DNA of 64,000 nt from Cupriavidus pauculus (GTDB taxonomy: Bacteria > Pseudomonadota > Gammaproteobacteria > Burkholderiales > Burkholderiaceae). The stretch lies in the NCBI RefSeq assembly GCF_003854935.1, contig NZ_CP033970.1:1674001-1738000 (forward strand), in the 5' to 3' direction. This document shows positions 34,455 to 37,347 of the stretch, piece after piece. The translations under genes were made by a program, and so were the position numbers. The notes beneath the pieces were generated by a model. The model searched no databases, was not told the origin of the DNA, and worked only from the letters and a program-made list of their open reading frames with translations. Each line of letters opens with the position of its first letter. Position 1 is the first letter of the stretch.

Positions 34455-35945
34455 TCACGGCGCCGGCGCCTCGTCCGCCAGCTTCCGGGCCAGCGCCAGC
34501 GCGGCCTCGATTTCAGCTTCGACATTGGCGCGCGCGCTGGGGCCATCTACCCGCAGCGCGTACGACGGATGCCACGTCGCCACGATCCACGTATCGCCCT
34601 GCCGCAGCGGTGCCGCCATCGCGTGGCGCAGGCGGATCTTCTCGCGCACCACGGCGCCCAGCGCGGTCGCGCCCAGCGTGACGATCACCTTCGGCCGCAC
34701 CCGTTCGCGCTCCTGGTCCAGCCAGTGCGCGCAGGCATCGACTTCGAGCTGCCCCGGCGTCTTGTGCATGCGCCGCTTGCCGCGCGCGAACCACTTGAAG
34801 TGCTTGACCGCGTTGGTCAGGTAGACGCTGTCGCGCCGCACGTCGGCGCGCCGCAGCGCCTCGTCCAGCACGTGTCCGGCCGGGCCGACGAATGGCTCGC
34901 CCGACAGGTCCTCCTGATCGCCGGGCTGCTCGCCGACGACCATGATGCGCGCCGTGTCCGGCCCTCGCCCGGGCACGGCCTGCGTGGCGTGGCGCCACAG
35001 GTCGCAGTTGCGGCACTGGTCCAGCGATGTCGGCGCGGCGCGCACGGGCTGGGCCTGCTCGGCGTCCACCGCCACGCGCTTGCCCCGCATGCCGCCGATG
35101 TTCGCCGCCTGGCCGACGCGCCGGGCGCCGTTGCGGGCGTCGGCGATCATGCCCGGAATCAGCGCCGCCTCGGGCAGCCCCTTCCAGAATCGCACCGGCA
35201 TGTGCTGGTGCAGCGCCGCTTCGTTGAGCCGCGCCGGGTTGAAGATGTTCCTGTAGTAGGCCATCCAGAGCGGCTCGATCTGGTCCGCGCCGGCGCGGAA
35301 AGCCGCCGGGTCCGCCGGCGCGGCCGCGTAGCGGATGGCCCGGCCGTCCCAGGTGGCGGCGCCGTCCGGCGTGCCGATCCACCACGTGGCACCGCCCATG
35401 CGCCGGGCAAAGTGCTCGGCCGCGTAGGGCAGCACGTCGTGGTCGGGCTCGTACCAGGCCAGGTACTGCGGCAGGTCGTCACCGGTGCCGACGGTCATGT
35501 CGGGGCGGCGCTCCTGAAAACGCACGTAGGCGATCATGTCGTGCTGCGCGCGCCGCACGGCCTTGGCCATCGCGTAGAGCCGCGCGCCGTCCTCGTCGGC
35601 TGCCGACGCTACCGAGCGGTCGCCTTGCGCCCAGCGCCACAGCACGCGGTACAGAAAGGCCCAGCGCTGCGGCGAGCGGTGCGCGGCGGCGTCGCGCAGC
35701 AGGTCGGCCAATGCTTTCGAAATCCGCAGGGTGGGGGTGCTGGCGCCGGCGTCGACAGTAGACGACGCCGGCGCCGCATCCATCGTCAGCGACAACTGGC
35801 CGGCCTCGCCAGCAGCGGTCTCGCCGCCGCCTTCCCACACCACCGCCTCTGGCGGCCAGCCCTGCGCCAGCGCATGCAGCGCCTGCTTGCGCCAGCCGGC
35901 GTAGCCGCCTTCGACGACGAGCACGGGCGCCACGCCGTTGTTCAT
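34455..35945 (-). CDS. udgX: UdgX-type uracil-DNA glycosylase fused to a DUF4130 domain
   Basis: A 496-residue fusion. The N-terminal half (about 1-290) belongs to the DUF4130/TIGR03915 'DNA metabolism' group. The C-terminal half is a family-4-like uracil-DNA glycosylase of UdgX type. It has GEQPGDQEDLSGEPFVGPAG (338-357), NAVKHFKW, the KRRMH loop (390-394) and HPSYALR (H459). In UdgX the His of the KRRIH loop forms a covalent bond with the abasic site after uracil removal; here Ile is Met but His394 is kept. CRNCDLW suggests Fe-S cysteines. It overlaps the upstream radical-SAM gene by 4 bp, so translation is coupled, and it lies under a LexA box. Confidence 0.93.
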   Translation of the reverse strand: MNNGVAPVLVVEGGYAGWRKQALHALAQGWPPEAVVWEGGGETAAGEAGQLSLTMDAAPASSTVDAGASTPTLRISKALADLLRDAAAHRSPQRWAFLYRVLWRWAQGDRSVASAADEDGARLYAMAKAVRRAQHDMIAYVRFQERRPDMTVGTGDDLPQYLAWYEPDHDVLPYAAEHFARRMGGATWWIGTPDGAATWDGRAIRYAAAPADPAAFRAGADQIEPLWMAYYRNIFNPARLNEAALHQHMPVRFWKGLPEAALIPGMIADARNGARRVGQAANIGGMRGKRVAVDAEQAQPVRAAPTSLDQCRNCDLWRHATQAVPGRGPDTARIMVVGEQPGDQEDLSGEPFVGPAGHVLDEALRRADVRRDSVYLTNAVKHFKWFARGKRRMHKTPGQLEVDACAHWLDQERERVRPKVIVTLGATALGAVVREKIRLRHAMAAPLRQGDTWIVATWHPSYALRVDGPSARANVEAEIEAALALARKLADEAPAP

Positions 35946-37156
35946 AGCAGCGCCAGTTGCTGGGGCGCGGGTGCCAGCGCGCGGCGCAACTGGTCGGAAG
36001 TCGGCTCGGCCAGCGCCGGCTTGTAGTCCTGCGTGACGACAAACGCCTTGACGGTATCCATCGCGCAGCGCAGCCGGATCAGGTCCTGGTAGCGGATGGC
36101 CCGCGTGCGGCGCAGCTCGGCCAGCCGCTTGGCGTTGCGCATGCCGATGCCGGGCACGCGCGCGATCAGCCGCTGCGGCGCGCGGTTCAGGTCTACCGGG
36201 AACGCCTCGCGATGCGCCAGCGCCCAGGCCAGCTTGGGGTCGATGTCGAGCGGCAGCGCGCCGTCGGCCTGGAACAGCTCATCGGCGCGAAAGCCGTAGC
36301 CGCGCAGCAGGAAGTCGGCCTGGTACAGCCGGTGCTCGCGCAGCAGCGGCGGCGCCTGCGACGGCAGCGCGGACGGGCTGTCGGGGATCGGGCTGAACGC
36401 CGAGTAGTAGACGCGCTTGAGCTTGTACGCGCCGTACAGCGTCTGCGCGGTCTGCAGGATCGTGCGGTCGTCGGCCTCGTCGGCGCCGACGATCATCTGC
36501 GTGCTCTGGCCAGCCGGCGCGCGGGCCGCCGGTGGCCGCTTCTCGGTCTCCGCTTCCTCCTGGGCCAGCCGGATCGATCCCATCGCGCGCTTGATCGTGT
36601 GGACGTTCTTTTCCGGCGCCAGCCGTTGCAGGCCGCCGTCGGTGGGCAGTTCGATATTGACGCTCAGGCGGTCGGCGTACTGGCCGGCCTCGCGGATCAG
36701 GCGCGGATCGGCGTCGGGAATCGTCTTCAGGTGGATGTAGCCGCGGAACTGGTGCTCCTCGCGCAGCGCGCGGGCCACGGCCACGAGTTGTTCCATCGTG
36801 TAGTCGGCGCTGCGGATGATGCCCGAGCTCAGGAACAGCCCGTCGATGTAGTTGCGGCGGTAGAACTCCAGCGTCAGGTTGACGACTTCGGCCGGCACGA
36901 AGCGTGCGCGCGGCACGTTGCTGGAGCGCCGGTTGACGCAATACTGGCAGTCGTACTGGCAGAAATTGGTCAGCAGGATTTTTAGCAGAGACACGCAGCG
37001 GCCGTCCGGCGTGAAGCTGTGGCAGATGCCGGCGCCCGTGGTGGCGCCCAGCCCGGCCCGGCCTTGCGAGTCGCGCCGGGGCGCGCCGCTGCCGGCGCAC
37101 GATGCGTCGTATTTCGCCGCATCGGCCAGGATTTCGAGTTTCTTGAGCAGTTCCAT
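35942..37156 (-). CDS. Radical SAM protein, putative DNA modification/repair (TIGR03916)
   Basis: A 404-residue radical SAM enzyme. Cluster motif C66-x3-C70-x2-C73 (NFCQYDCQYC) binds the 4Fe-4S cluster. LFLSSGII, YIHLKTIPDAD, LSVNIELPTD and FSPIPDSP are features of the TIGR03916 family, which is regularly paired with UdgX and DUF4130 proteins. The C-terminal helix-hairpin-helix region (LIARVPGIGMRNAKRLAELRR, about 340-360) suggests DNA binding. First gene of the operon. Start chosen at MELLKKLEIL, immediately downstream of the LexA box. The reaction is unknown. Confidence 0.92.
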   Translation of the reverse strand: MELLKKLEILADAAKYDASCAGSGAPRRDSQGRAGLGATTGAGICHSFTPDGRCVSLLKILLTNFCQYDCQYCVNRRSSNVPRARFVPAEVVNLTLEFYRRNYIDGLFLSSGIIRSADYTMEQLVAVARALREEHQFRGYIHLKTIPDADPRLIREAGQYADRLSVNIELPTDGGLQRLAPEKNVHTIKRAMGSIRLAQEEAETEKRPPAARAPAGQSTQMIVGADEADDRTILQTAQTLYGAYKLKRVYYSAFSPIPDSPSALPSQAPPLLREHRLYQADFLLRGYGFRADELFQADGALPLDIDPKLAWALAHREAFPVDLNRAPQRLIARVPGIGMRNAKRLAELRRTRAIRYQDLIRLRCAMDTVKAFVVTQDYKPALAEPTSDQLRRALAPAPQQLALL

Positions 37157-37163
37157 GACGCGA

Positions 37164-37183
37164 TACTGTATGGATGTACAGTA
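37164..37183. promoter_or_regulatory. LexA (SOS) box
   Basis: TACTGTATGGATGTACAGTA carries the full CTGT-N8-ACAG LexA core (37166-37181) and the flanking TA/TA of the E. coli consensus. The palindrome extends one base further on each side. It is only 7 bp upstream of the radical-SAM start, so LexA would cover the promoter or transcript start. Confidence 0.88.
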
Positions 37184-37347
37184 TTCTACGCGACCGCCGG
37201 AATTGCGCAATCTCGCATTTTCGTCAGCGACGAAAAAGGCAGCAGGCGTCGCGCGGCGGGTGATTCGTCAGGCGCGCAGCGCGTTTTGGGCGGTCTGGGC
37301 GTCACGTCGCAGCCGGTCGATATCGAGCCGACCACGGCCGCGCCGCG

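Follow-up and report, generated by a model that had tools for sequence, protein, structure and literature searches.

A predicted LexA box before a radical-SAM and DUF4130-UdgX operon in Cupriavidus pauculus, and DUF4130 as the constant partner of the radical-SAM gene

In Bacteroidetes, a two-gene COG1573-COG4277 operon lies under LexA-type motifs, and SOS control of this uracil-DNA glycosylase (UDG)-based repair system is stated there to have been reported earlier in Verrucomicrobia and Alphaproteobacteria (PMC8565304). DUF4130 has been linked with radical S-adenosylmethionine (radical-SAM) proteins and UDGs (PMC3765255), and a radical-SAM gene is among the LexA targets of Streptomyces (PMC9380542). 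For betaproteobacteria, LexA control has been predicted for splB and two hypothetical genes, and the available part of that paper does not name a radical-SAM/UdgX operon (PMC3323433). UdgX itself has found use as a genome-technology tool (PMC10359453), which makes it worthwhile to know the context in which it occurs in nature. The main texts of PMC10359453 and PMC10776899 contain neither the word SOS nor the word operon, and the available parts of PMC1839093 and PMC9578287 hold nothing on a radical-SAM/UdgX operon. In the literature collection searched, no paper joined UdgX, SOS and LexA, and none named TIGR03916. Here we analyze a 64-kb stretch of the genome of the soil bacterium Cupriavidus pauculus (the window), in which a radical-SAM gene of TIGR03916, a family that we take to be the same as COG4277, is preceded by a predicted LexA box and followed by a gene encoding a DUF4130-UdgX fusion. 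To our knowledge, no DNA-repair machine of a radical-SAM/DUF4130 type has so far been characterised biochemically.

A predicted LexA box at the start of the operon

Three features define the locus (positions are those of the window):

37164..37183, no strand assigned: near-palindromic LexA (SOS) box TACTGTATGGATGTACAGTA, recognized by sequence pattern and conservation
35942..37156, minus strand: TIGR03916 (rSAM_link_UDG) radical-SAM gene, 404 aa (540.3 bits; curated cut-off 343.5)
34455..35945, minus strand: DUF4130-UdgX fusion gene, 496 aa, assigned by profile matches and overlapping the radical-SAM gene by 4 bp

A preliminary description of this DNA had reported a 20-mer with CTGT-N8-ACAG intact and TA flanking both sides, 7 bp from the start codon of the first of two coupled genes. 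Our coordinates, core, flanks and spacing are the same (the A of the minus-strand ATG is at 37156), as is the order of the genes, with the radical-SAM gene first. The fusion gene reaches 34455, past position 35942, which had been given as the start. Measured against the E. coli LexA consensus, 17/20 bases of the box agree. The bare 16-mer CTGT-N8-ACAG was expected 0.58 times in the window and found once; across the 6.18-Mb genome it matched 36 times versus 30 for a reversed control. Because these two genome counts are so close, the bare 16-mer says little by itself, and its count was discarded. The extended 20-mer TACTGT-N8-ACAGTA matched 10 times across the genome versus 0 for its reversed control, which, together with conservation in relatives, argues that the box is more than chance.

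That conservation is near complete. TIGR03916 matched in 38 of 201 genomes of the family Burkholderiaceae, 37 of them above the cut-off; in the other, G180, the gene is split and scores below it. Between -200 and +12 of the radical-SAM start, CTGT-N8-ACAG is present at 37 of the 38 family loci, the window counted, and the distance from the 16-mer to the start is 9-17 bp in all boxed loci. The single locus without a box (L071, in genome G168) has a gene broken into several pieces; the likewise split gene of G180 (L072) has one. First-order Markov shuffles put the chance per region at 0.0019 for CTGT-N8-ACAG and 0.0055 for the GTTC-N7-GTTC type treated below, and the reversed patterns of the two motifs matched 1 and 2 times in 198 real regions. 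The preliminary description had proposed LexA and SOS control and had named absence of the box from close relatives as the finding that would tell against it; its presence there strongly supports the proposal at the level of sequence.

The remainder of the genome points the same way. It holds 35 further bare-pattern sites, and flanking reading frames were examined at 19 loci (20 proteins scanned). Sites of the same class lie upstream of lexA (L011; two boxes, 25 bp from the reading frame), recA (L004; 144 bp from the reading frame, with a response-regulator gene on the opposite side), dinB, imuA and uvrA. Other boxed genes encode a UvrD/PcrA-like helicase, a Rad3/DinG-type helicase and a PA0069-type radical-SAM protein, and the box at L027 has an endonuclease/exonuclease/phosphatase gene on its other side. 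Taken together, these patterns make LexA control of the radical-SAM/UdgX operon very likely. Among the other sites, L010, L016, L017 and L022 have strong LexA-type boxes at which no adjoining gene could be named. The 16-mer CTGTATGCGAAAACAG occurs in four copies with the same 4-base flanks (L007, L009, L021, L025); these are probably parts of a repeated element rather than LexA sites.

Operator motifs across the phylum

In a phylum-wide set of 398 genomes, 84 carry TIGR03916 above the cut-off, and the motif before the gene changes with lineage. At the 30 carrier loci within the window's class, CTGT-N8-ACAG is present in 20 and the GTTC-N7-GTTC type (GTTC-N7-GTTC or GAAC-N7-GAAC, the alphaproteobacterial LexA motif) in 0. 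At the 54 carrier loci outside the class, the GTTC-N7-GTTC type is present in 54 and CTGT-N8-ACAG in 0, so that no crossover between the two was seen. A further 80 named loci, which overlap the family and phylum sets (e.g., L153, L154 and L176 are the genomes of L070, L064 and L129, respectively), divide into 16 with CTGT-N8-ACAG, 50 with the GTTC-N7-GTTC type, mostly in records titled with alphaproteobacterial genera or groups, and 14 with neither motif exactly.

In Pseudomonas-like loci (L149-L152, L163 and others), the box stands some 31 bp ahead of the start codon and has one base changed in its second half, as in CTGT-N8-CCAG. It may be a LexA site that has been weakened or tuned anew.

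DUF4130 is the constant partner of the radical-SAM gene

Three profile searches were run over the same 398 genomes with the same sampling settings, counting matches above the cut-offs; control searches matched TIGR03916, TIGR03914 and TIGR03915 in Caulobacter vibrioides. TIGR03916 was found in 84 genomes, TIGR03915 (DUF4130) in 87 and TIGR03914 (UdgX) in 78. DUF4130 accompanies the radical-SAM gene in 84/84 carriers and UdgX in 63/84; of these two partners, only UdgX is therefore optional. Among the 21 carriers in which UdgX does not reach its family cut-off, an exact LexA-type box is kept by 14 and one with a single mismatch by 5; one of the 21, G577, encodes a UDG-like domain under the UdgX cut-off, fused behind DUF4130. 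Conversely, 15 of the 78 genomes with UdgX lack a radical-SAM gene above the cut-off, and DUF4130 occurs without it in three genomes. At 10 of the 11 named Pseudomonas loci, DUF4130 but not UdgX was matched in the 2.5 kb following the gene; at the eleventh (L171), the sequence stops 146 bp past the gene.

The fixed partner of the radical-SAM gene is thus DUF4130, not UdgX, whose role looks like that of an accessory. This corrects the preliminary description, in which the radical-SAM protein was to prepare or finish the lesion for UdgX; as a core role, that arrangement is unsupported by these counts. We tentatively propose, at rather less than even odds, that the conserved unit is an obligate radical-SAM/DUF4130 repair enzyme, damage-controlled in the majority of the Pseudomonadota carriers studied, whose operator varies by lineage and to which UdgX is an optional add-on. 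DUF4130 may then be a DNA-binding partner of a degenerate DHH type (RecJ/Cdc45-like) for the radical-SAM enzyme, which has an extra conserved cysteine set (C20, C45, C54).

The radical-SAM gene also appears in collections of mobile elements. A plasmid collection gave 158 records with the gene (E up to 1e-50), 7 of them predicted to be conjugative; the commonest hosts were Phaeobacter (58), Paracoccus (15), Azospirillum (11) and Leisingera (10), and some records are chromosome-sized. In a phage collection, it was found on two "Acinetobacter phage" contigs, with 8 other matches lacking annotation. On one of the two contigs (L288, CAKLQH020000003.1), it is followed by a 798-bp gene for a probable DNA metabolism protein, and because glyS, glyQ and aidB are nearby, the contig looks like mislabelled bacterial DNA. 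Judged from this one contig of the two, phage carriage was set aside.

Domains of the two proteins

Within the two genes, the following domains and motifs were located:

36938..36961, minus strand: CX3CX2C radical-SAM cluster motif (C66, C70, C73), by sequence motif
36107..36199, minus strand: helix-hairpin-helix region, residues 320-350 of the radical-SAM protein (Pfam HHH_3, 20 bits, below the cut-off of 27)
35166..35918, minus strand: TIGR03915/DUF4130 domain, residues 10-260 of the fusion protein (182.6 bits; cut-off 112.25)
34494..35162, minus strand: TIGR03914/UdgX domain, residues 262-484 (237 bits; cut-off 189.95)
34920..34934, minus strand: UdgX motif A, GEQPG, from residue 338 (a published motif)
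34761..34778, minus strand: UdgX R-loop KRRMHK with the presumed cross-linking H394, by similarity to H109 of Mycobacterium smegmatis UdgX (PMC10359453)

With its CX3CX2C motif and radical-SAM barrel, the TIGR03916 protein belongs to the radical-SAM superfamily; its nearest named relative is from Cupriavidus agavae (96%), in a search that may omit the window's own genome. Across 38 aligned sequences, R333, P335, G336 and G338 of the helix-hairpin-helix region are invariant. So are C20, C45 and C54, which lie outside the CX3CX2C motif and form a possible second metal site. SPL (SplB) is not among the 50 fold matches listed for the radical-SAM protein, a listing that does not amount to exclusion. 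For DUF4130, a lead is that the domain may have a degenerate DHH/DHHA1-type fold like that of RecJ or Cdc45. The UdgX assignment of the preliminary description stands, as GEQPG and the R-loop histidine are both present as described for the mycobacterial enzyme (PMC10359453), and by similarity to that enzyme the fused UdgX is presumed to capture abasic sites covalently.

A different palindrome in Xanthomonadaceae

Upstream of the radical-SAM gene in Xanthomonadaceae stands another element. TCTCA-N5-TGAGA lies exactly at -38 relative to the start defined by homology at all six xanthomonad loci (L109, L110, L114, L185 [Stenotrophomonas], L174 [Xanthomonas dyei] and L210 [Pseudoxanthomonas]), and L244 was noted with the same finding. 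Two forms of the xanthomonad LexA operator were tried upstream of the six loci: TTAGTA-N4-TACTAA matched with 4/12 mismatches at best and TTAG-N11-CTAA with 2/8. The xanthomonad lexA gene carries TTAGTAGTAATACTACTAA, which matched the same upstream regions with 10/19 mismatches at best, and the site of the second lexA gene was not found in them either.

The longer form GTCTCA-N5-TGAGAC occurs in 26 of 40 Xanthomonadaceae genomes, and its reversed control in 0 of the 40. When one site per genome was examined (26 of the 46 listed; L254-L279), 9 were at a helicase gene, whose best family, TIGR03817, was matched below the cut-off from a partial reading frame; 5 were at the radical-SAM gene, and 12 were unassigned. 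In two Stenotrophomonas-like genomes (L233, L240), such a site is followed 23 bp later by a reading frame matching UvrA. This distribution suggests that in Xanthomonadaceae another, non-LexA regulator governs the operon together with repair genes, although the palindrome could alternatively be an RNA hairpin. A literature search, judged by titles and the opening lines of abstracts, brought up no xanthomonad operator at uvrA that is independent of LexA.

Proposed mechanism and alternatives

Two putative promoter elements adjoin the box in the window:

37183..37188, minus strand: probable -10 element TAGAAT, read by eye, with one base in common with the box
37205..37210, minus strand: possible -35 element TTGCGC, by eye only, 16 bp from the -10 element

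We infer LexA binding, induction and a division of labor among the proteins. LexA bound at 37164-37183 would cover the stretch from the probable -10 element to the start codon and so block transcription, and cleavage of LexA driven by RecA after damage would free the promoter. The radical-SAM protein, which has a C-terminal helix-hairpin-helix region, and its constant partner DUF4130 would then act jointly on damaged DNA. The fused UdgX may be accessory to them, capping by covalent attachment the uracil or abasic sites that appear in the course of the response. We regard the regulatory part, a LexA-repressed and DNA damage-inducible two-gene operon, as highly probable; the division into a radical-SAM/DUF4130 core pair and an accessory UdgX has roughly an even chance of being right.

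Several observations weigh against this model. The promoter overlapping the box, with its -10 element TAGAAT and weak -35 element TTGCGC, is only probable, because TAnAAT at the identical position is limited to 15 of the 37 boxed family loci and a sigma-70 consensus scan returned no promoter at its threshold; a TTGC hexamer like the -35 element is visible in some aligned relatives (uncounted). An exact box of either kind is missing from 10 of the 84 phylum carriers: five of these (L136, L149-L152) have a one-mismatch CTGT-N8-ACAG in -60..0, compared with a background of 1/54 out-of-class loci, three (L109, L110, L114) have the xanthomonad palindrome, like the named Stenotrophomonas locus L185, and L073 and L104 showed nothing clear upstream among the motifs sought. 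The 14 named loci with neither exact motif count similarly. Six of them have a one-mismatch CTGT-N8-ACAG in -60..0 (L163, L165, L168, L170, L171, L178), and the remainder are three Xanthomonadaceae, two Verrucomicrobiaceae and three others (L164, L186, L188). When TGTTC-N4-GAACA, the verrucomicrobial LexA motif, was tried on two verrucomicrobial loci, L232 had one mismatch and L225 two. In the window's own genome, some boxes are at genes without an evident part in repair; a LysR-type regulator gene (L013), for example, has two. As for the proteins, the TIGR03916 and DUF4130 profiles matched no solved structure by sequence, and we know of no enzyme activity for either family.

Three other explanations were weighed. 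A 16-mer expected about 0.6 times per window of this size, with a genome count close to that of its reversed control, might be a functionless chance match in a GC-rich genome. This is strongly opposed by the conservation at 37/38 family loci, the outcome of the extended-box control, the motif switch across the phylum and the low shuffle rate, and we give it next to no credence. The box might instead be real and serve a palindrome-binding repressor with a site similar to that of LexA. While the different palindrome before the operon in Xanthomonadaceae lends this some color, the same box class is also found at SOS genes of this genome, lexA and recA among them, and outside the class every one of the 54 loci has switched to the alphaproteobacterial LexA motif, so that a regulator other than LexA appears very improbable.

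A reading along the lines of the preliminary description, in which the operon serves UdgX and the radical-SAM and DUF4130 proteins prepare uracil-DNA or resolve UdgX-DNA cross-links, deserves more weight. UdgX is fused to DUF4130 in the window, and across the 398 genomes it is found in 63/84 TIGR03916 carriers compared with 15/314 non-carriers. Set against this association are the 21 carriers without UdgX above the cut-off, which all have DUF4130 and of which 19 retain an exact (14) or one-mismatch (5) LexA-type box, and the 15 UdgX carriers without the radical-SAM gene. The argument from the 21 would be weaker if some lineages had lost UdgX secondarily. On balance, we consider a UdgX-serving operon unlikely, and favor the radical-SAM/DUF4130 pair as the core.

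Comparison with known systems

UdgX of M. smegmatis (PMC10359453, PMC10776899) shares with the protein in the window the GEQPG motif and the R-loop with its cross-linking histidine. Unlike the mycobacterial enzyme, UdgX here is fused behind DUF4130 and lies in an SOS-type operon. The link of DUF4130 with radical-SAM proteins and UDGs was already drawn in PMC3765255, the available part of which, unlike the counts above, gives no survey of partner constancy. Among genes with predicted LexA control in Burkholderiaceae, including Cupriavidus and Ralstonia, splB is likewise a radical-SAM repair gene, but one named as a spore photoproduct lyase homologue (PMC3323433). The PA0069-family gene at L003:333-1472, the second radical-SAM gene of this genome with its own LexA box, is perhaps the counterpart of that splB.

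Also close is the COG1573-COG4277 operon of Verrucomicrobia, Alphaproteobacteria and Bacteroidetes (PMC8565304), which, like the operon in the window if TIGR03916 is indeed COG4277, joins a UDG-superfamily protein to COG4277 under LexA-type control (predicted in the window). It differs in that the window comes from a betaproteobacterium, Cupriavidus, with a CTGT-N8-ACAG box and the radical-SAM gene first, followed by a DUF4130-UdgX fusion. The SOS link proposed in the preliminary description therefore holds up as a prediction for this locus and not as a novelty, since for other groups SOS control of such operons had been published before (PMC8565304). SOS-type control here is not a new kind and is mostly expected from those other bacteria. 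What the present analysis adds is the near-constant LexA box among Burkholderiaceae carriers, which brings an uncharacterised radical-SAM family into the SOS response predicted for Burkholderiaceae, and the finding that the link to damage goes with the radical-SAM/DUF4130 pair and not with UdgX, which gives an experimental handle on the function of these proteins.

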